Positions 4,200-24,437 of a stretch of DNA of 35,776 bases are shown one piece after another. Every line of letters begins with the position of its first letter. Position 1 is the first letter of the stretch. The notes below the pieces were generated by a model. It was given only the letters and a program-made list of their open reading frames with translations, had not been told where the DNA came from and made no database searches. Position numbers and translations under genes: made by a program. Source of the DNA: a virus; IMG/VR virus record IMGVR_UViG_3300035698_027953, positions 1-35,776 of that record, one strand, 5' to 3'.

Positions 4200-4868
4200 T
4201 TATTTGTCCCGGTTATTTTTAAGGGTTGTGATATATTCTGATGCTTCTTGAATGGGAAGGTCTGCAAGGGTTTCTATCTCATTGGCCCTCAAGATTTCTT
4301 CTTTCATTACAGCCTTGCCTTGAAGTAGGCTATTAAGGAATTTTAGCTGACCTTCGGTTATCTTTCCGTTACTTGAACCTTTGCTTTCGGAATAAGGCTT
4401 AGTATCTTCGTCATCTTCTTCCATGATCCCAAGAAGTTCTTTTGTTATATAGCGCTCAAGCCTGGTGTAGACGCCTTGAATTTCTCCGGCCTCTTTTCCT
4501 GTTGGATTGTCTTTATGTGGCCCTTGTACGATTGACTCGAAGAACTGACCGCTCGAATGTTGTAGCCGGGCTCTCAAAAAGTGGTCACCTTTTATCTTTG
4601 ATCTATATAAGTAATAGACGATTCCGTTATTATGCAACGCTTTAAATGTTGAACTACCATAGTCAGCCAATACAGCATAAGCACCACGATCACCCATTCG
4701 CGACTTAACTAAGGGCTCATATTCGGACTGTGCTTTACAAAAAGCTGCCATCAACACATCGATCGATTGAGATTGAGTTCGCGGCTCATCGTTGAACTTT
4801 GCATGCTCTAGGGCATACAGTTTCATTTCTAAACTAGTGATTCTGGCTTGGAGGTTATTTTCTTCCAT
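4200..4868 (-). CDS. erf: ERF-family single-strand annealing recombinase
   Basis: 222 residues. ERF proteins (named for P22 Erf) anneal complementary single strands in phage recombination and genome circularisation. Family features visible: a helical start (IDVLMAAFCKAQSEYEPLVK, residues ~36-55), YAVLADY, a core strand region RARLQHSSGQFFES, and the late motif GVYTRLERYITKELLGI followed by an acidic stretch EEDDEDTK. Residues ~165-222 form a separate small C-terminal domain (ITEGQLKFLNSLL), as seen in several phage annealing proteins. AAAGGA ribosome site 8 bases before ATG. Length is within the family range. Upstream small genes in the same leftward operon are probable partners. Confidence 0.8.
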   Translation of the reverse strand: MEENNLQARITSLEMKLYALEHAKFNDEPRTQSQSIDVLMAAFCKAQSEYEPLVKSRMGDRGAYAVLADYGSSTFKALHNNGIVYYLYRSKIKGDHFLRARLQHSSGQFFESIVQGPHKDNPTGKEAGEIQGVYTRLERYITKELLGIMEEDDEDTKPYSESKGSSNGKITEGQLKFLNSLLQGKAVMKEEILRANEIETLADLPIQEASEYITTLKNNRDK

Positions 4869-8304: not shown

Positions 8305-8967
8305 ATGACAACTGAACAACACACTAAGATTAAAACGATAGCCATGAATAAACTTATCCCACCAGCGACTCATCAGTTCCATAAATTAAACCTCACAACC
8401 GCCGGCAAAATACGCCTCTCCCAATTCCCTAACCAATCTCTCATCCATGCCCGAGATAACTACAACCAATCCCTTACAGGCGAACAAGCGTACCAAGAGA
8501 TCACTAACTTATGCCTACAGCATGTTAAGGATACGTACAGACAGCTTAACCTCGAAGCTATAAGCTTCCTGCTCGATCTTTATAAAATCGTTGATTCTGA
8601 GCCAAATACGAAGCCTGTTGTAGTTAAGCTTAAACACCCCGTCTATAAACACGACTTCTCAGATAAGCCTTACGAACCTGTTTATTATTCGTACTTCAAA
8701 CTTAAAGACCACTTAGGCCAAAACAATCTTAACCTTCCTAACCCCTACGAAGGACGTTACAGGTCATACTTACAAGAAGCACTAGAAACTGGAGTTGAAG
8801 CAGAAACCCTTGAGGAGCAACTTTATGAACTCTACCTTAAACAAAAAGCCGATGGTCTATACCCTGCTTGGAAAACCAATACCATTAAAAAGACCTCAGT
8901 TCTCAACAAAACCTTTCCCCCACGGAATCGACACACAGAAAGCACTCAAAGAAGAAGCACGGTATGA
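8305..8967 (+). CDS. Unknown protein overlapping the RusA gene
   Basis: 220 residues, TTAGGAG ribosome site 9 bases before ATG. Mixed Tyr-, His- and Pro-rich sequence, for example VVKLKHPVYKHDFSD and EPVYYSYFKL. Residues ~175-220 overlap the RusA-like gene in another frame by 143 bases and are basic and low-complexity (RNRHTESTQRRSTV), so the end may be a by-product of the overlap. No family recognised. The strand shows a marked preference for C-ending codons compared with neighbours, also seen in the next gene. Confidence 0.55.
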   Translation: MTTEQHTKIKTIAMNKLIPPATHQFHKLNLTTAGKIRLSQFPNQSLIHARDNYNQSLTGEQAYQEITNLCLQHVKDTYRQLNLEAISFLLDLYKIVDSEPNTKPVVVKLKHPVYKHDFSDKPYEPVYYSYFKLKDHLGQNNLNLPNPYEGRYRSYLQEALETGVEAETLEEQLYELYLKQKADGLYPAWKTNTIKKTSVLNKTFPPRNRHTESTQRRSTV

Positions 8968-9274
8968 TATACTCTCACAAGCACCCAAACCTACAATCCT
9001 AGACGGACCACTACACCTCGACGTTACCTTCTACATGCAAATCCCCAAATCCTACAGACCCAACAAACGAACCAAAATGCAGGGTACTCTACACGACAAA
9101 AGACCCGATGCCTCAAACCTTCTTAAATTCCTAGAAGATACTATTCAAGGTATCCTTATCAAAGACGACTCAACCATCACCACCATCACCGCTAGAAAAA
9201 TATACGATAAATTAACCAGAACCGAATTCACCATCGTAAAGGACACGTATGGCGAAGAAAAAACCACAGTCTAA
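8825..9274 (+). CDS. rusA: RusA-like Holliday-junction resolvase
   Basis: 149 residues from ATG 8825, chosen because TGAGGAG lies 8 bases upstream; alternatives are 8795 and 8852. RusA enzymes cut four-way junctions and are frequent in phages. Visible family features: start VYTLLGKPIPLKRPQF (residues ~11-26), strand LHLDVTFYMQIP, the catalytic-type motif KRPDASNLLKFLEDTIQG with Asp95 and Asp105, and the acidic pair IKDDSTI (114-115). The C-terminal strand ends TEFTIV. Length is close to the family norm. It overlaps the upstream gene by 143 bases and the downstream gene by 26. Likely resolves branched DNA before packaging and partners the ERF annealing protein in recombination. Confidence 0.75.
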   Translation: MNSTLNKKPMVYTLLGKPIPLKRPQFSTKPFPHGIDTQKALKEEARYDILSQAPKPTILDGPLHLDVTFYMQIPKSYRPNKRTKMQGTLHDKRPDASNLLKFLEDTIQGILIKDDSTITTITARKIYDKLTRTEFTIVKDTYGEEKTTV

Positions 9275-11229: not shown

Positions 11230-11643
11230 ATGACAATGGAAATGGTTACAACAGGTATGGTAGTGATAGTGGTTGGTCTTATTTCATTTATTGTTGGCTA
11301 CATTGTGCGTCAGCTGATGGAGAAGCCGACATCGAAAGAAGGACCGCAGTCGGCTTTCACGATGTCAGAAATGCTATGTCGAGAAATCCAAGAGATCTCT
11401 GGTGTTAATGAAGAACTTCTTGGTTCAGCTGTTGACGATAAATCACCAGCTTTATCGTCAAGCTTGAAGGGAAGTATTGAACTTCTTGGCCGCAAGTTTG
11501 ATAAGCTTTCGGCTCAGATACGGTCAGAGGTTAGGATGGACCATATTGTTAAGCACGAGCTTAGAGATAAGCCTAGTAAAGTAGTTGCACGCAAGAAGCG
11601 TGGACGGCCAGTTGGATCTAAAAACAAAGGGAGGAAGAAGTAA
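11230..11643 (+). CDS. Membrane protein carrying a portal-gene fragment and an AT-hook-like tail
   Basis: 137 residues, TAGGAG site. Residues ~8-28 form a membrane helix (GMVVIVVGLISFIVGYIV). Residues ~39-71 (PQSAFTMSEMLCREIQEISG, then VNEELLGSAVDDK) match the portal protein of this same phage (PQSFFQMSEILGKEIQEISG, VNEELLGSATDDK) in the same frame. The DNA match runs without gaps from about 11344 to 11443 against 19677-19776. The rest is a helix-rich linker and a very basic end with KKRGRPVGSKNKGRKK, an AT-hook-like motif. Likely a chimera: membrane anchor, borrowed portal segment, DNA-binding tail. Whether it touches the portal, DNA or both is unknown. Confidence 0.65.
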   Translation: MTMEMVTTGMVVIVVGLISFIVGYIVRQLMEKPTSKEGPQSAFTMSEMLCREIQEISGVNEELLGSAVDDKSPALSSSLKGSIELLGRKFDKLSAQIRSEVRMDHIVKHELRDKPSKVVARKKRGRPVGSKNKGRKK

Positions 11644-12828: not shown

Positions 12829-15255
12829 GTGCCAAAAGCGGAGACCGTAAAACTAGATAACTTCGTTCCTCGTGATTATCAGCGTTGTATCTTTCAGGCT
12901 CTTGAGGTTGATGGTTACAAGCGTGTGATGGCTGTCTGGCCTCGACGGTGTCTGTCTGGAGAGACTCATATAACGATGGCCGACGGTTCCTGGAAGTTTC
13001 TTAAAAACATAGAGGTAGGCGATAAGATTCTCTCATGGGATCAAATGAATTTTGTTCAGGACACTGTAAAGAACGCTTGGAAGACGGGGATAAAAGACAC
13101 CAAGATTATTAAGACGTTTTCGGGTCTTCCAATTGTAACTTCTTATGATCATAAGTTTGCGGTAATTAACGATTATATTTCGCAATGGAAGCCTGCTTCT
13201 TCTTTAAATAATCGGACTAAAGTTCTAAATTATGCAGGGATTCGAAGAGGAACTCTTAATAATCCAGATCTTGCTGAGTTTATTGGGTATATGTCGAGCG
13301 ATGGATATTGCTCTGCTTATCAACAACCAAAATTCACCAATACAAACAAAGTGATACTTTGTCGCGTAGAATACTTAGCAAAAAAATTGTTTGATTATAA
13401 AGCTATATGGCGCAAGAAGGGCAATGGATACGATATAGGTTTTTCGAATGGGACTCGTGGGGGAGGGACATTTAAAAACAAGATAAAGGAGCTTTTCCGT
13501 CAAGAAGGACAAGATGTTCCAAAAAGGGAAAGCAGGCTTCTTTCATATGTGTGGCGCTTTGACGAGAAATCTTTAGGGCGTTTTTTTGCAGCAGTTATTT
13601 CATCTGATGGATCTATTTATTGCCATAATAAAGGATTCGTTGGAGATAGAGGAAGATCCATTCCGCCAGCGAATGAAGTCTCGATTCATTGTGGTAAAAG
13701 TTATGAGCTTGGTTGGGACATGTATTGGCTGCTTAGAAAGTTTGGAATTATGCCACAGTCCCCGATAAACGAGCGAGGTAGCAACTGGGAGATTAGGGTT
13801 GCCAAGGGAAATGCAGTTAAAAAGCTTCTATCATTTGGGCCTGTTTATGGAAAAACCGTTAAACAGAAAGAGGTTTTGGCAAGAATTCCCACTCATCCAT
13901 TTAAGCCTAAAAAAGAAAGCAGCTGTTGGAAGAATTGTCCTAGAATTTCTGATGGAGTTCCAGAAGAACTTTACGATATAGAAACAGAAACATTTCATAG
14001 CTTTGTGGCTAATGGATATGTAGTACATAATTCAGGAAAAGATGTCACCGCGTGGAATGTATGTATAAGAGACCTAATAAGATCCACCAAAACTATTTAT
14101 TACGTTTTCCCTACGTTTGCAGGGGGTCGGCGTATTCTCTGGGACGCTATTACCAACGACGGCTTTCGTATTTTAGACTATCTACCTATTGAACTTGTGG
14201 AGTCACGCAACGAGCAACTCATGCGTATACGACTTAAAAACGGTTCAGTGTTTCAGATTGTCGGCTCTGACTCGTATGACACCTCCTTGGTGGGAACTAA
14301 CCCGCAAGGCGTAGTATTTTCAGAGTTTGCCCTGAGTGACCCGCTGGCTTACCAGTTTGTAAGGCCAATTTTGACTGCAAACCAGGGGTGGACGCTCATA
14401 ATTTCCACGCCGAGAGGTAAAAATTTTCTATATGACATGTATTTAGCGGCACAGCTAAACCCTGATGATTGGTACCTATCGCATCTTACAGTAGAAGACA
14501 CTAAGCATATTTCTATTGAAAACATTATGCGTGAGCGCGAGATTGGAGAGATGTCCGAAGATCTACAGATGCAGGAATACTGGTGTTCATTTGATCTTGG
14601 TATTGAGGGAGGATATTACACTAAGTACATGGACAAGTTGCGGCTCAACGGTCAGATCGGTTTGGTTCCATGGGAACCGCAGTATCCTGTTCATACCGCC
14701 TGGGACATCGGAGTTCGTGACAGTACGGTTATTATCTTCTTTCAGATAGCTGGGCAAGCCATTAAGGTAATTGATTGCTATGAGAAAAATAAGGAAGGGA
14801 TTGAGCACTATGTCAATGTCATCAAAAGTAAGCCTTATACTTACGGTAAGCATGTGGGTCCTCATGACATACGTAATTTTGAGTTCTCTTCAGGCACAAC
14901 GAGATGGGAGAAAGCCCGTCAGCTTGGTGTTACCTTTGATGTTGCAGATAAGCTCTCAATAATGGACGGTATTGAAGCTGTAAGGACAACGCTTCCTAGA
15001 ATGTGGTTTGACGAGAAGAAATGTAGGCCGCTCATTAAGGCAATTGAGAATTACCGCCAAGAGTTCGATTCTAAGAAAAAGATCTATAAAAAGAACCCGT
15101 TACATGACAAGTGGAGCCATTTTTGTGACGGATTACGTTATCTTGCGGTTCACCTTCCTAAGCTTAGGGTTGGCCTCACTCCAGACGACATAGACAGACT
15201 CCGTAATGAAGCACAGTACGGTAAGCAATCGAAGCTTCCAAGGTTCTTTAGGTAG
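12829..15255 (+). CDS. terL: Terminase large subunit with an intein
   Basis: 808 residues as translated, GTG start; removal of the 361-residue intein leaves a 447-residue enzyme of normal size. TerL is the ATP-driven motor and headful/cos nuclease. In mature numbering: Walker A PRRSGKD at 38-44, rebuilt only after splicing; Walker B VVFSE at 134-138 with catalytic Glu; coupling motif IISTPRG at ~163-169; RNase H-like nuclease acids in AWDIGVRD (Asp265), VIDCYE (Asp288) and FCDGLRY (Asp406). The C-terminus is KQSKLPRFFR. The last 11 codons are repeated three times downstream (see repeats). Because the intein splits the ATP-binding loop, the unspliced protein should be inactive, so packaging depends on splicing. 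Confidence 0.92.
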   Translation: MPKAETVKLDNFVPRDYQRCIFQALEVDGYKRVMAVWPRRCLSGETHITMADGSWKFLKNIEVGDKILSWDQMNFVQDTVKNAWKTGIKDTKIIKTFSGLPIVTSYDHKFAVINDYISQWKPASSLNNRTKVLNYAGIRRGTLNNPDLAEFIGYMSSDGYCSAYQQPKFTNTNKVILCRVEYLAKKLFDYKAIWRKKGNGYDIGFSNGTRGGGTFKNKIKELFRQEGQDVPKRESRLLSYVWRFDEKSLGRFFAAVISSDGSIYCHNKGFVGDRGRSIPPANEVSIHCGKSYELGWDMYWLLRKFGIMPQSPINERGSNWEIRVAKGNAVKKLLSFGPVYGKTVKQKEVLARIPTHPFKPKKESSCWKNCPRISDGVPEELYDIETETFHSFVANGYVVHNSGKDVTAWNVCIRDLIRSTKTIYYVFPTFAGGRRILWDAITNDGFRILDYLPIELVESRNEQLMRIRLKNGSVFQIVGSDSYDTSLVGTNPQGVVFSEFALSDPLAYQFVRPILTANQGWTLIISTPRGKNFLYDMYLAAQLNPDDWYLSHLTVEDTKHISIENIMREREIGEMSEDLQMQEYWCSFDLGIEGGYYTKYMDKLRLNGQIGLVPWEPQYPVHTAWDIGVRDSTVIIFFQIAGQAIKVIDCYEKNKEGIEHYVNVIKSKPYTYGKHVGPHDIRNFEFSSGTTRWEKARQLGVTFDVADKLSIMDGIEAVRTTLPRMWFDEKKCRPLIKAIENYRQEFDSKKKIYKKNPLHDKWSHFCDGLRYLAVHLPKLRVGLTPDDIDRLRNEAQYGKQSKLPRFFR
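12949..14031 (+). mobile_element. Intein with LAGLIDADG homing endonuclease in TerL
   Basis: 361 residues between Arg40 and Ser of the TerL P-loop. Starts with Cys1 (CLSGETHI, block A) and continues NIEVGDKIL; block B is near PIVTSYDHKF. It ends LYDIETETFHSFVANG then YVVHN (blocks F and G, His-Asn), followed by +1 Ser; all splice residues are present. The nested endonuclease shows two degenerate dodecapeptides, LAEFIGYMSSDGY (~108-120) and LGRFFAAVISSDGSI (~209-223), each keeping an acidic residue. The insertion point RR^SGK in Walker A is a known type of intein site because of its conservation. Homing activity looks possible, not proven. Confidence 0.9.
15223..15255 (+). repeat. terL C-terminal tail, resident copy (copy A)
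   Basis: Eleven codons including the stop, encoding KQSKLPRFFR. This is the functional end of terL and the reference for three degenerate copies downstream. It is followed by AAAAATT and the ATG of the first inserted gene, so its TTTAGG also acts as the ribosome site for that gene. Confidence 0.85.
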
Positions 15256-15262
15256 AAAAATT

Positions 15263-15589
15263 ATGAGTGCAGAAGTGTTAGTTGCAGGCATGAGATTTGG
15301 TCGATGGACCGTTATTGGTTCAGCTGGAATTATGTTGAGCGTTGGGCGTATTAGTGACTGCCAGTGTGATTGTGGGATTAAACGTAAAATCGATAACGCA
15401 AGCCTTAATGCTGGTCTTACTAGGGAGTGCTGTGGCTGTTATCGCAGATACAGGTTTGATGTTCTTCCTCTTAGTCACGAATATAAATATGGTAAATCTG
15501 ACTGGACTTCAACTGTACGTATGGGCGCTATTGGGCTAGTTCGTCGATATACTACAAAGCGAAAGAACTTACTTGAATTTTGCTGGTAA
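15263..15589 (+). CDS. Small zinc-ribbon protein related to phage homing-nuclease accessory domains, cassette 1
   Basis: 108 residues from ATG 15263. Residues ~10-62 follow a pattern frequent at the ends of phage HNH/AP2 homing nucleases: GMRFGRWTVIG, a spacer, then CQCDCGIKRKIDNASLNAGL and ECCGC. Four or more Cys would bind zinc. No HNH, GIY-YIG or LAGLIDADG motif is present, so there is no visible nuclease. It lies 7 bases after terL, uses the terL tail as ribosome site, and its TAA is shared with a displaced copy of the terL tail. Probable mobile or mobilisable cassette; function unknown. Confidence 0.55.
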   Translation: MSAEVLVAGMRFGRWTVIGSAGIMLSVGRISDCQCDCGIKRKIDNASLNAGLTRECCGCYRRYRFDVLPLSHEYKYGKSDWTSTVRMGAIGLVRRYTTKRKNLLEFCW

Positions 15590-15620
15590 TAAATCTAAGC
15601 TCCCACAGTTTTTTAGGTAG
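15588..15620 (+). repeat. Displaced terL tail, copy B
   Basis: Directly after, and overlapping, the stop of cassette 1. In terL frame it reads NKSKLPQFFR and stop, that is 7 of 10 residues as in terL, with the other three changed conservatively. Its first two bases are the last two of the cassette stop codon. TTTAGGTAG followed by AAAAAA again precedes the next ATG. Confidence 0.8.
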
Positions 15621-15627
15621 AAAAAAT

Positions 15628-15981
15628 ATGAGAGAATATGAGAAGGTCCATATTTTTACGCGTGGGCAGCGGGTTGGATCTCTAGAGATAATAAAAGAGG
15701 TTCCAATCGAAGAAAGGAAAAACAGGAAAAACCGCTTTTTTGTATGTAAGTGCGATTGTGGAAGAATTAGTAAGATTGTGATCACAATCCTTATGAATGT
15801 TGAGAATTCAGCATGCTCTTTGTGTCGTGTTCGAGCAAAAAAAGTAAGAGTAAAAAAAACAACTGAAGAGACAAGAAAAAATCAAGGTTATCGTGGTTAT
15901 TTCGAATCTAAACAAGAAAAAAGGTTAGAAGAACTAGATTTGTTATTAGCTTTGAAGGGCCAAAAGTTTGATGATATTTAA
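15628..15981 (+). CDS. Small zinc-ribbon protein, cassette 2
   Basis: 117 residues from ATG 15628. Same architecture as cassette 1: GQRVGSLEIIKEVP, then FFVCKCDCGRISKIVITILM and CSLC, followed by a basic Lys-rich linker (KVRVKKTTEE) and a helical end. The upstream junction (TTTAGGTAGAAAAA.T.ATGAG) is nearly the same as for cassette 1, which suggests the two entered by the same route. No nuclease motif. Its TAA again overlaps a displaced terL tail. May be DNA-binding; role unknown. Confidence 0.55.
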   Translation: MREYEKVHIFTRGQRVGSLEIIKEVPIEERKNRKNRFFVCKCDCGRISKIVITILMNVENSACSLCRVRAKKVRVKKTTEETRKNQGYRGYFESKQEKRLEELDLLLALKGQKFDDI

Positions 15982-16012
15982 GCAATCAAAACTCCCCCGT
16001 TTCTTTAGGTAA
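15980..16012 (+). repeat. Displaced terL tail, copy C (identical peptide, synonymous codons)
   Basis: Reads KQSKLPRFFR and stop exactly as in terL, but with seven base differences from the resident copy, all synonymous: the Ser, Lys, Leu, Pro, Arg and stop codons differ (for example AGG in terL, CGT here). It overlaps the stop of cassette 2. This pattern means the copy evolved under selection as a real terL end. Confidence 0.88.
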
Positions 16013-16020
16013 GGACGACA

Positions 16021-16488
16021 ATGAACTATAGAGAAGCGTTTGAAGCCGTAAATCAAGCTATTTTGAATCTTAGAGGAAATTGGCTTTCTGAGAATGTGGA
16101 GATAATAAAGGAATATTTTAGTGAGGGCGGCTATCTATATAACTTGAACGACCCTGAAGTTAAGAAGTCTTTGGAAGCATTATCGCTTTTTGCTAAGGCT
16201 GCTTATGAAGCAAAACACTTTTATGATAAGGAAGCGGGTTGCGGCAGCTCTTTCAATGTTATTATTGGGAATATAAATACAGCTCTTAATAAGATCGAAG
16301 ATTATATTGAGGGCGATTATTTATGGGCTTTCTTCCCAAATGATAAAGAAAGCGAGCATGAAAAATTTACAGACGCGTATGAGGACGCGAGAATAAATGC
16401 GCGTCTTCTTAGAAAGAAAATTTTGATGCTTATGGATTTAGAATGGGATGTGCGAGAGGCTGAGGATTTTTTGAAGGACAGCAAGTAA
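16021..16488 (+). CDS. Unknown acidic helical protein, cassette 3
   Basis: 155 residues, TAAGGACG upstream, taken from the displaced terL tail. Acidic, all-helical, with two internal helical hairpins (ALSLFAKAAYEAKHFYDKEA; RINARLLRKKILMLMDLEWD). No zinc, nuclease or membrane motif. Its TAA overlaps the fourth terL-tail copy, so it occupies an insertion slot like the two zinc-ribbon genes, yet it does not look like a homing gene; it may be cargo. Function unknown. Confidence 0.55.
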   Translation: MNYREAFEAVNQAILNLRGNWLSENVEIIKEYFSEGGYLYNLNDPEVKKSLEALSLFAKAAYEAKHFYDKEAGCGSSFNVIIGNINTALNKIEDYIEGDYLWAFFPNDKESEHEKFTDAYEDARINARLLRKKILMLMDLEWDVREAEDFLKDSK

Positions 16489-16507
16489 GCAATCGAAACT
16501 CCCCCGA
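16487..16507 (+). repeat. Displaced terL tail, copy D (truncated)
   Basis: Seven codons reading KQSKLPR, sharing AAA-CTC-CCC codons with copy C and TCG with the resident copy, then diverging into GGAGCCAAC. Overlaps the stop of cassette 3 by two bases. It may be the oldest remnant, with the end lost. Confidence 0.8.
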
Positions 16508-16529: not shown

Positions 16530-16811
16530 ATGCAACCACCTTCAGGAAAATATAGTTGGGATGAAGAAACAGACATTTCTCGCTTAGAGAAGCTTAAGAA
16601 AAAGTCAGTTGTATTATCTTCTTGCGCAGACAAGTTGTATGAATACCTTAAGACAATGCGCGTTCATGTTGATTTTGAGGATATTACAGAGGAGCAACTA
16701 GGCAGCTCCTCTATGTTCGGCTTTGTTCAAAGCCTTGAGGACATTGCGCTTCGATTCGCTTACCAAAGTAGAGCTCTTGAGGAGAGAATTAAAAGGTTAA
16801 AAGATGCATGA
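16530..16811 (+). CDS. Unknown helical protein
   Basis: 93 residues from ATG 16530. Helical, with a coiled-coil start (DISRLEKLKKKSVVLSSCAD) and end (LRFAYQSRALEERIKRLKDA). The ribosome site is poor (TAGGA at short spacing). It closes the cassette array, 22 bases after the last terL-tail copy. No family recognised. Confidence 0.5.
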   Translation: MQPPSGKYSWDEETDISRLEKLKKKSVVLSSCADKLYEYLKTMRVHVDFEDITEEQLGSSSMFGFVQSLEDIALRFAYQSRALEERIKRLKDA

Positions 16812-16943: not shown

Positions 16944-17504
16944 ATGATTGGAGATCCATTTAGTAGTGAATACTGGAAATCCCACTTTTGTCGTGATTCG
17001 GGCCATCATATTTCTTTGCTAGCTAATTTATTAAGAAAAGAAGACAAGAAAAAGTATAAGAGTGCGTTCCAGGCTTCCTATTTTATTATTAATGAAAAAG
17101 AGAGGCGAAGAGCTAGTCGTTTATACCCAACAGGTGGTTGGAGAATAAGCCGACTTCTTTCTGTTTACTGTCCTAAGAATGTGTTCCCTTGTGGCACAAG
17201 TGAAACTAGAAAGAAGAGGCTTGCTGCATTCAGGGACAAAGAGAAGATTGAGATCGCGGCTTTTTTTAAGTTCATCAATGAATCTGTTTCTGGAAAAGAT
17301 ATTAAGTACTATGGCGATTGGCGGCTTGAGATATGGAATGAGTTTTCTAAGGAGCTTGAAGCTAAAGTAAATGAACATATTAAGATTCCATCGCGAGTAG
17401 AGTCCGCTCAACTGATTTTATTTTCTATGGGTGCCGCTCTTAAGACGATTGGTAAAAGTCTTTCTCCCTTTCTAAATAGACAAGAAAACCAAGATCCTAG
17501 TTAA
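16944..17504 (+). CDS. Unknown basic protein
   Basis: 186 residues; GAGAGG site 9 bases before the ATG. Basic and aromatic (SEYWKSHFCRDSGHHIS; RLYPTGGWRISRLLSVYC), with a hydrophobic helix near residues 155-172 (QLILFSMGAALKTIGKSL) that is too short and polar for a clear membrane segment. No motif recognised. It lies after a terminator, so it needs its own promoter; the AT-rich 50 bases before it (CATATATAAC) could supply a -10. Confidence 0.5.
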   Translation: MIGDPFSSEYWKSHFCRDSGHHISLLANLLRKEDKKKYKSAFQASYFIINEKERRRASRLYPTGGWRISRLLSVYCPKNVFPCGTSETRKKRLAAFRDKEKIEIAAFFKFINESVSGKDIKYYGDWRLEIWNEFSKELEAKVNEHIKIPSRVESAQLILFSMGAALKTIGKSLSPFLNRQENQDPS

Positions 17505-18159: not shown

Positions 18160-18234
18160 GGCCCTAAAGCCACGCGTTAAGGCAACAGTCTGAGGGACTG
18201 TGATAGCTAGGTTAGACTCCTAGTAGCGCCTCCA
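18160..18234 (+). tRNA. tRNA-Cys-like gene with GAG anticodon position
   Basis: 75 bases fold as a cloverleaf. Acceptor GGCCCTA/TAGCGCC has one C-C mismatch; D-arm GCC..GGC; anticodon stem ACAGT/ACTGT with loop CTGAGGG; 5-base variable loop; T-stem CTAGG/CCTAG with loop TTAGACT; then T and an encoded CCA. U73 and the D-arm resemble bacterial tRNA-Cys, but the anticodon reads GAG (Leu codons CUC/CUU) without the long arm of tRNA-Leu. Position 8 is A and position 56 is A instead of C. A working tRNA, a tRNA-like element or a decayed gene are all possible. Confidence 0.5.
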
Positions 18235-18258
18235 AAATCCAGTCTTTTAAATTTATTG

Positions 18259-18329
18259 AACGATCTAGCCAAGCGTTAAGGCACGGACTGCACCTCTGTG
18301 ATGGCCAGGTTAGACTCCTGGGGTCGTTC
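18259..18329 (+). tRNA. tRNA-Cys-like gene (GCA anticodon)
   Basis: Acceptor AACGATC/GGTCGTT, extended by a further G-C pair; TA at positions 8-9; D-arm GCCAAGCGTTAAGGC; anticodon stem ACGGA/TCTGT with loop CTGCACC, placing GCA (Cys). The usual base between D-stem and anticodon stem seems missing. Variable loop GATGG; T-stem CCAGG/CCTGG with loop TTAGACT. No CCA is encoded. It shares the unusual T-loop and D-arm with the gene 25 bases upstream, so the two are duplicates. Anticodon is tentative. Confidence 0.55.
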
Positions 18330-22681: not shown

Positions 22682-24437
22682 ATGCCTATCACTACAACGA
22701 CAGTGCTTGCACCACAAGTGCAACAAAGTTTCAATATGAAGCTTTTGTCGACTCCTACTCCACAATATATTCACAAAGTACCTGCAGAGCTGTTCACACT
22801 ACCTAAAAATGGTGGTGACACTCTCAGAATGTCTCGTTATAACCAGCTAGCTTCATCGCTCGTTCCTTTGGGAAATACTGGTGTAACTCCTCCTTCAACA
22901 CAGCTCACCGCTGTAAATATTGACGCACAGATCTCTTACTACGGTCAATACATTGAGATTAACGAGCAGGTTGACTTATCGCTTAACTAGCGATAGTGCG
23001 CGAAACGTTCTTTGAAATTTCTTGGCTTGTAAAAAATGGCCTGCTTTAAATCCGCTCTGATTGACTTGGAAGTCCTAACGTAAAGACGAGGACGACAGGG
23101 GCGAAGCAATCATTTTTTATTGTTGTAGTTTCTACAGTGAAGAGACGCGAGTTCTTCGGCGTATTGTTTACGAAGAGCAAGAACTTCTGGACTAATTTTC
23201 CTTACTTTTCCTCTTCCTTTATATGTTTTTCTCATTGCGAGCATAATTTCAATCTCTCGTTTTTTGATAACGATATATGGGTAGACGATATTCAGAATAG
23301 TTTCCAGGTTCTTACCTGTTACCTGCCAACGATAAACCTTTTTACGTGAGTTTTTCGGTGTTTGTTTTGGAGTATATTCTGATAACCAACCCCCAAAATT
23401 TTCAACAACCCACTCAATAAGAACTTTATCGGTGCTTGTTATTCCTAAAGATGTTGAAAAGAAAGCTCTTCCTTGTGTATGACTGCTATCGCATATTGAG
23501 ATACTTCCTTCTCCATCTACGATTCCAGCCATATAAGCGAGAACAATAGGTTTAAAATTTTTATTTGGATCGATTGTTTTCATAAGAAACTCCTATATAG
23601 ATGTAGCTGTCACGTTACAGTATATAGCAATAAAGAATGGTGTGCACGCTGAGAGACTGAGGCGAGTGGACACTGAGAAGTGAAGCGACAGTCCGATCCG
23701 AGAAGGAAACTCTCGGAGGGAGGAATAACAAGACTCCCCGCCAAGTTGTAATATACTTGGTCATAAAAGTAACAGTTAAATGCACTTTGCAACGCCAGGA
23801 TCCGGTTTTGAACGCAGCATCGGAGCGTCTTGGTGAAGCTCTTCGTCGTACAGAAGATGAGCTAACAAGAAACATGCTTGCTAGTACTGCTGCTTTCCTT
23901 AACTGTGTTGGCGGTGTGAATGGCGATTCCCCTACAGAGTTGTCTCGTTCTGACGTTGATGAAGCGGTTCAAACGTTGCTTGGTGCTGATGCTAAGACTT
24001 TCCTGGAGAAGATTCCCGGAGAAGATCGTTTTGGTACAGCTCCTGTAAGAAATGCATATTTTGCTTTGGCAAATACTGACATTACGTCGAGCCTGGGCAA
24101 TGTAGCTGGATTTATTCACTCGTCTCAGTATCCAAACCCTAATGGGCCATTGGATGCAGAGTGGGGATCTGTAGCTAACATGCGTTTCTTGGTGTCGTCT
24201 ATTGGTTCAACAACTCCAACTTCGTCTATGCTTGGCGCGGATGTTTTCAACATCTTCTGTCTTGGTATGGAAGCTCTTGGTTGTGTTGAGCAGGATGCTT
24301 ACAGCGCGCAGTTTATTTATAACGGACCAGAGCTCAACGGACCGTTGCGTCTGAACAGCACTGTTGGTTATAAGTTTGCTGAAGTGCCTCGTATCCTGAA
24401 TGACGCATGGGTTATCAATCTACGTTGCACACTATAA
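22682..24437 (+). CDS. Major capsid protein (N4-gp56 type), split by a group I intron
   Basis: Exon 1 is 22682-22983 and exon 2 is predicted at 23795-24437; joined they encode 314 residues and the junction reads VDLSLQDPVLN, the continuous form expected for the family. Exon 1 holds FNMKLLSTPTPQYIHK and NGGDTLRMSRYNQL, features of N4-gp56-type capsid proteins (HK97-like fold). Exon 2 holds ASERLGEALRRTEDELTRNM and ends VINLRCTL. Reading straight through gives a stop at once after exon 1, so the protein needs RNA splicing. A shorter ORF starting at 23757 is intron sequence and not a gene start. Scaffold gene upstream and head genes downstream agree. Confidence 0.85.
22984..23794 (+). mobile_element. 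Group I intron in the capsid gene
   Basis: 811 bases. The 5' splice region forms a P1-like hairpin (exon ATCGCT with intron AGCGAT at 22989-22994). The 5' part has GGAAGTCCTAACG and GGGGCGAAGC, like P4-P6 pieces. The 3' part has CTGAGAGACTGAG and GAAGCGACAGTCC, forming P7 (GACTG/CAGTC). P9-type stems follow: CCGAGA/TCTCGG and CCAAGT/ACTTGG. The predicted last base is G, as required. Exact splice points may be off by a base or so; P1 has U-A rather than the usual U-G at the site. Contains an antisense LAGLIDADG gene. Confidence 0.85.
23110..23583 (-). CDS. LAGLIDADG homing endonuclease, antisense inside the intron
   Basis: 157 residues with a good TAGGAG site upstream on the minus strand. One LAGLIDADG motif near residue 16-27: LAYMAGIVDGEGSIS (the acidic residue is present), so it should act as a dimer. 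A typical fold follows: LGITSTDKVLIEWVVENFGG, YRWQVTGKNLETILNIVYPY and IKKREIEIMLAMR. It is encoded opposite to the host gene, so it needs its own promoter and is silent in the capsid transcript. It would cut intron-less capsid genes. Sits in a loop between the 5' and 3' core halves of the intron. Confidence 0.88.
   Translation of the reverse strand: MKTIDPNKNFKPIVLAYMAGIVDGEGSISICDSSHTQGRAFFSTSLGITSTDKVLIEWVVENFGGWLSEYTPKQTPKNSRKKVYRWQVTGKNLETILNIVYPYIVIKKREIEIMLAMRKTYKGRGKVRKISPEVLALRKQYAEELASLHCRNYNNKK

Follow-up and report, generated by a model that had tools for sequence, protein, structure and literature searches.

Stacked genes and displaced copies of the large terminase gene end in a tailed phage

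The window analysed here, that is the whole stretch of DNA under study, is a 35.8-kb virus record (IMG/VR record IMGVR_UViG_3300035698_027953, 35,776 nt) from a tailed phage distantly related to the pelagiphage HTVC010P and similar phages, the TerL proteins of the closest isolates being approximately 43% identical to its own. Six small genes lie between terL, which encodes the large terminase, and the portal gene (18420), and repeats of the terL 3' end separate the first three of them. We refer to the resident end of terL as tail A, to its displaced copies as tails B, C and D, and to the small open reading frames (ORFs) next to them as ORF1 to ORF4 (Table 1), the last of which is presumably the original neighbour of terL.

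Table 1 Coordinates of terL, its tails, the small genes behind it and the recombination genes of the window.
Feature	Position	Strand	Basis
terL, large terminase, intein-interrupted in Walker A motif	12829..15255	+	PHROG terL 2.2e-20, phrog_2472 1e-45
Tail A, resident functional terL end GKQSKLPRFFR-stop	15220..15255	+	sequence, repeat search
ORF1, 108-aa zinc-finger protein (CxC...CxxC); stop TAA from tail B	15263..15589	+	phrog_374 HNH endonuclease 4e-10, profile 197-252/617
Tail B, displaced terL end GNKSKLPQFFR-stop	15585..15620	+	repeat search, alignment, codon comparison
ORF2, 117-aa zinc-finger protein of the ORF1 family; stop TAA from tail C	15628..15981	+	phrog_374 7e-7
Tail C, displaced terL end KQSKLPRFFR-stop	15979..16012	+	repeat search, alignment, codon comparison
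ORF3, 155-aa protein without credible family match; stop TAA from tail D	16021..16488	+	profile searches
Tail D, truncated displaced terL end KQSKLPR	16486..16506	+	repeat search; 20/21 nt identical to tail C
ORF4, 93-aa protein, no family assigned, no relative found	16530..16811	+	database search
Erf-like single-strand annealing protein	4200..4868	-	phrog_2324 2e-11, phrog_155 1e-8
RusA-like Holliday junction resolvase	8795..9274	+	Pfam RusA 1e-19, phrog_140 7e-31

A repeat search of the window recovered all four tail copies in register, including the three displaced copies (15585, 15979 and 16486) that the original prediction had placed behind three small genes. Its reading of the individual copies also agreed with the sequence: tail B retains 7 of the 10 residues of KQSKLPRFFR, tail D encodes KQSKLPR and diverges thereafter, and a codon-by-codon comparison of tail C with tail A gives an unchanged peptide with seven base changes, all synonymous (TCG/TCA, AAG/AAA, CTT/CTC, CCA/CCC, AGG/CGT, with two bases changed, and TAG/TAA). 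Local alignment scores were 37 for A with B and 36 for A with C, when the best of 1,000 dinucleotide shuffles of the 3.2-kb region reached 29, and 37 for C with D (best shuffle 26). Tails A and D score 28, which is within the shuffle range, so that the link of D to terL runs through C. No other functional gene of the window has its end repeated within it.

The stop codons (TAA) of all three inserted genes fall inside tail-homologous bases (15587, 15979 and 16486), confirming that each gene completes its stop within a displaced tail, and the three joints coincide at one tail base. The likeness between tails A and B runs beyond the stop, over the intergenic bases and up to the next start codon (TAGAAAAAWTATGAG). 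The earlier suggestion that the TTTAGG of each tail serves as ribosome site for the following gene is plausible but stands on weaker ground: behind tails A and B AGG lies 12-13 nt upstream of ATG, the stop of tail C is followed by a better AAGGA, and tail D has lost TTTAGG.

ORF1 and ORF2 share four invariant cysteines (CxC...CxxC) and align solely to positions 193-261 of the 617-position phrog_374 HNH endonuclease profile, an alignment in which neither shows an HNH catalytic domain. Judging from these profile matches, the two proteins are the zinc-finger part of the HNH homing endonuclease family, that is, predicted relatives or remnants of such enzymes and not HNH endonucleases. A structure model of ORF2 (predicted local distance difference test score, pLDDT, of 86) had among its best viral fold matches AP2/HNH proteins and a putative homing endonuclease of the HNH type, with E values from 1e-4 to 1e-3 and template modelling (TM) scores below 0.5; the zinc-finger protein model had no match among solved structures.

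TerL relatives were taken from viral and genome contigs, giving 197 non-redundant loci (L numbers below), and the region downstream of each terL was searched with its own tail. Scores of at least 32 were counted, given that 2,287 tests with unrelated tails reached a maximum of 29 and reverse-strand searches a maximum of 27. Own-tail copies were found in 10 of the 197 loci (L091, L119, L012, L112, L040, L070, L032, the window, L106 and L067), with the weakest cases overlapping the null in a peptide version of the search. L004 scored 33-37 but was dropped, its match being to a stretch other than the terL end, and three further loci (L152, L215 and L108) were dropped as chance-level matches. Four of the TerL relatives (L146, L147, L151 and L174) come from contigs assigned by binning to Chlamydiia, Simkaniaceae and Parachlamydiaceae, which hints at candidate hosts for part of this phage group.

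The displaced stretches are 21 to approximately 60 nt long. They are unlike between lineages, for example QHDLPRPFRETPY, EAVLGEESSIPYIFRHRQ and GFFNDNHRIY, each followed by the stop codon, showing that each phage repeats its own terL end. The inserted genes are mostly unrelated among the nine related phages with displaced tails. Joints at a stop-like triplet within the tail occur in L091 (TGA) and L032 (TCATAA). In L106 (1578-1646) the terL tail stands in tandem with no intervening gene, as would result from the renewed loss of an inserted gene. The best explanation for these arrangements is that the terL 3' end is a recurrent slot for gene insertion.

Applied to other gene ends at the same loci, the search gave 17 matches out of 1,588 at the terL threshold, some of them artefacts; matches due to paralogues or repeats (L152, L175) were left uncounted. 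The end of terS is genuinely repeated: in L015 four 36-nt copies and several shorter ones join small genes into a row, and behind terS of L005 there is a comparable row with shorter repeats. In these rows (L015:2910-5000 and L005:3470-4860) the terS-end copies contain the ribosome-binding site and start codon of the next gene.

Tail copies were absent from all 7 TerL-related phage isolates checked, and the 4.7-kb region had no DNA relatives among phage isolates. In viral_contigs no relatives were found for ORF3, ORF4 or the gene at 16944. A back-translated tail pattern matched only the contig of L003, and this search found no donor of tails A to D.

Genes of the zinc-finger/HNH family recur behind terL. 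In L067 a full HNH endonuclease of 235 aa (phrog_374, 2.9e-57) lies directly behind terL and is followed by a displaced tail (LPAMFRDDVSKY and stop, against the resident LPGFFRDDVPKY and stop) which its last codons and stop overlap. The view that mobile-element enzymes have no part here has to be corrected in the light of this full endonuclease in the slot and of the family of ORF1 and ORF2. In L003 a homologue of ORF2 (54% identical) stands directly behind terL without ORF1, its stop borrowed from the tail remnant TTTTTTAGGTAG (chance approximately 7e-5), while L042 and L092 have the same terL end and next gene and differ by the presence or absence of one zinc-finger gene in between. Within 1.6 kb behind terL, such genes were found at 11 of 124 loci, 3 of the 10 with displaced tails and 8 of the 114 others (one-sided P 0.045). 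They also gather upstream of terL, behind terS.

The tails themselves record their coding history. Over all pairs of resident and displaced tails we counted 34.5 synonymous and 14.5 non-synonymous differences, against 9.5 synonymous expected (P ~4e-14), with 12 pairs, three of them from the window, pooled as if independent. A useless duplicate would collect mainly non-synonymous changes, and because the reverse is seen, the displaced tails were once working terL ends, both copies having served as such in separate genomes until recently. The original prediction had made this very claim for the window, and had further proposed that the old end was pushed downstream. The latter agrees with L040, where the displaced copy scores 61 and 60 against the resident terL ends of L092 and L042, and the phage's own end 52 and 45, a comparison which rests on few informative sites; this displaced copy includes a TAATG overlap with the next gene. 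For tail C against L003 the scores were 38 to 30, and most loci are without close relatives for such a comparison.

We consider it very probable that at each event a donor terL end and its adjoining gene were inserted together and the old end was displaced. The resident terL end would be replaced by DNA of a co-infecting relative that starts within the relative's terL, passes the stop codon and extends into a small gene, with the right-hand joint falling in the final 20-60 nt of the resident gene. The old end would persist downstream of the new gene as a direct repeat and would retain the start region of the next one, and repeated events would stack genes with the newest adjoining terL, the order that we infer for the three events in the window. 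Replacement with a right joint in the recipient tail would account at once for the recoding of the resident end, the old end found downstream, the stop that each gene borrows, the kept start region and the stacking, and is supported by the L040 tail and by the recurrence of ten different terL ends.

What drove these events in the window is a closer question, and we put the chances that homing by HNH/zinc-finger endonuclease genes was the driver at about even. A break near the terL tail of the recipient would be repaired with a gene-carrying genome as template, using homology in terL on the left and in the tail on the right. ORF1 and ORF2 would be nuclease-less descendants of such genes and ORF3 a passenger, and the recoded tail of the donor could both restore TerL and escape cutting. 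Homing would account for the clustering of the HNH family behind terL, for the L067 case and for the fixed joint in the window. Several observations weigh against it. Seven of the ten loci with displaced tails have no zinc-finger/HNH gene near terL, their inserts being DUF551-like or of no recognised family; conversely, HNH genes stand behind terL without a detectable displaced tail in L065, L069 and L039, and the enrichment of the family is weak. As ORF1 and ORF2 lack an HNH domain, nothing in the window itself could cut. Furthermore, the coinciding joints contain TAA, so that short-homology joining at the gene's own stop would suffice, with no need for a site-specific nuclease.

This last point leads to an explanation which keeps the same end replacement and stacking and dispenses with a nuclease. 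Unequal recombination between co-infecting phages, helped by Erf-type annealing, could join the end of a small gene, often at its own stop codon, to a few matching bases in the recipient tail, and the tail-flanked gene could later be gained or lost through ordinary homology between tails. We regard this as a serious possibility, with chances somewhat below even. It fits with most inserted genes not being recognisable nucleases, with joints at TAA- or TGA-like bases common to the gene stop and the tail (window, L091, L032), and with the gene-free repeat of L106, as expected from loss between tails. The terS-end arrays of small genes with ribosome-binding site and start, long in L015 and shorter in L005, point the same way, as does the fact that the phage encodes Erf and RusA. 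It leaves unexplained, however, why the remnants never exceed approximately 60 nt when longer ones would be detectable, why the three window joints fall on one base and why HNH/zinc-finger genes cluster behind terL and terS.

Two further explanations do without a donor end. The terL end could simply have been duplicated around an insertion, in the manner of a target-site duplication, and the useless copy could then have drifted. This would be compatible with L091, L112 and L070 taken alone, where the copies show 1, 1 and 0 differences. Taken over all loci it is very unlikely, and for the diverged cases strongly disfavoured, as drift predicts mainly non-synonymous changes and the opposite was found, tail C has no non-synonymous change in ten codons, and the displaced copy of L040 groups with the terL ends of other phages. 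A transposon target-site duplication, with identical flanks drifting neutrally, is likewise contradicted by the synonymous excess. Alternatively, the repeats could be kept for another reason, either as a translation signal for the following gene, as the repeat often reaches its ribosome-binding site or start (window A/B, L070, L112, L015), or as a conserved short ORF, for which tail C offers an upstream in-frame ATG (13 codons). We find this most improbable: a ribosome site does not call for the terL peptide to be conserved codon by codon through synonymous changes, the repeats follow the terL end of each lineage with no motif in common, and tail D and the L032 copy are truncated or frameshifted. 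An in-frame start codon is missing from five displaced copies (window D, L091, L112, L040 and L070), which are therefore not short ORFs, and the synonymous pattern refutes either function as the sole cause of the repeats.

A broader generalisation, which we hold to be rather unlikely, would treat the 3' ends of packaging genes in this group of phages as reusable cassette sites, at which small genes carrying a synonymous terL or terS end could be gained, stacked, swapped and lost from phage to phage by short-end recombination, with a protein-coding tail as docking sequence and recoding protecting an occupied site.

Among known systems, integrases can restore the 3' terminus of tRNA or protein genes, as e14 does in icd. 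As in the terL slot, a replacement gene end is supplied, the old end is left on the far side and tandem stacking is possible; unlike such elements, the terL insertions each bring a single small gene, and their joints vary among lineages, from 21 to 60 nt. Consistent with the original prediction, no integrase was found among ORF1 to ORF4 and the other genes scanned, which make up part of the window genes. An element moved by a site-specific integrase was set aside on the absence of an integrase or recombinase gene from this set, and the arrangement can be explained without recourse to integrases.

The original prediction also knew of no described element adding genes in this stacked way. In fungal mitochondria, however, mobile ORFs (mORFs) do likewise, a foreign C-terminus with an endonuclease ORF being inserted and the native C-terminus displaced, as in atp6 of Allomyces macrogynus and atp6, atp9, cox2 and nad3 of Glomus (PMC3630166). 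Both enter an essential gene at its 3' end, bring a near-synonymous foreign end and leave the native end displaced downstream (PMC3630166). With mORFs the displaced end is closer to that of relatives, as may hold here in L040, on few sites, and the ORF can also run in phase with the native end. The slot described here differs in lying in a phage, at a terminase gene, in being stacked up to three deep and in having tails of 20-60 nt, against roughly 50-280 nt in fungi. It also involves zinc-finger/HNH genes in place of the fungal endonucleases, many of its inserts are not nucleases and its mobility enzyme is putative: the inserted ORF is an endonuclease in L067, only the zinc-finger part of one in ORF1 and ORF2, and not recognisable as one in most others. 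What is new is therefore the phage, terminase version of an end-replacing insertion already known from fungal mitochondria. For phages, no report of displaced gene ends was found in the open-access literature searched, which is weak evidence of absence.

Phages do carry free-standing HNH homing endonucleases, such as the mob and seg genes of T4 (PMC2988022) and those of homing endonuclease gene (HEG) islands (PMC10448857). They resemble the terL inserts in being small endonuclease genes beside essential genes, including terL, and overlapping the end of the upstream gene, and they home by break repair with co-conversion of flanks, the route proposed here; unlike them, the terL slot has a displaced host-gene end, and ORF1 and ORF2 lack a nuclease domain. 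The T4 review never uses 'duplicat' (PMC2988022), and passages of the HEG-island study on HEGs beside terL describe no displaced ends (PMC10448857). HNH proteins of the HrdP or HK97 gp74 type also lie between terL and portal and, according to two reports, are conserved packaging partners in all members (PMC12724721, PMC10448857). They share the position directly behind terL, whereas the genes found here are patchy in presence and flanked by a displaced terL end.

How small accessory genes enter phages without harm to essential genes has mostly been deduced by comparing mosaics. In the present case the joints survive, and every event leaves a dated fossil of the former gene end from which order, donor relatedness and breakpoints may be read directly. 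The displaced tails would extend to phages a mode of gene transfer of fungal mitochondria, and homing at terL could be tested with a single enzyme, the HNH protein of L067.

The Erf-like protein of the window is a candidate for the recombination machinery acting on homologies of tail length. Within terL, an intein with a LAGLIDADG-like domain interrupts the Walker A motif (about 12949-14031; Pfam Intein_splicing 8e-12), and in L042 an intein with an HNH-like gene occupies another site of TerL. The major capsid gene (22682-24437) is apparently split at 22990/23757; the opposite strand carries a gene for a LAGLIDADG endonuclease (23110-23583, phrog_5046 5.9e-26), and Rfam gave no intron match. 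Between terS and terL, small genes of L005 (3720-4262) and L015 (4981-5301) contain a stretch like the capsid motif NCxxGxNGDSPTEL, which surrounds the site of the capsid gene interruption in L012 and L124. A small gene of the window (11230-11643) contains an in-frame fragment of the portal protein (SEMLCREIQEISGVNEELLGSAVDDK), its DNA being very similar to that of the portal gene near 19.7 kb, and two diverged copies of approximately 50 nt lie 98 nt apart just upstream of the portal gene (18168-18319).

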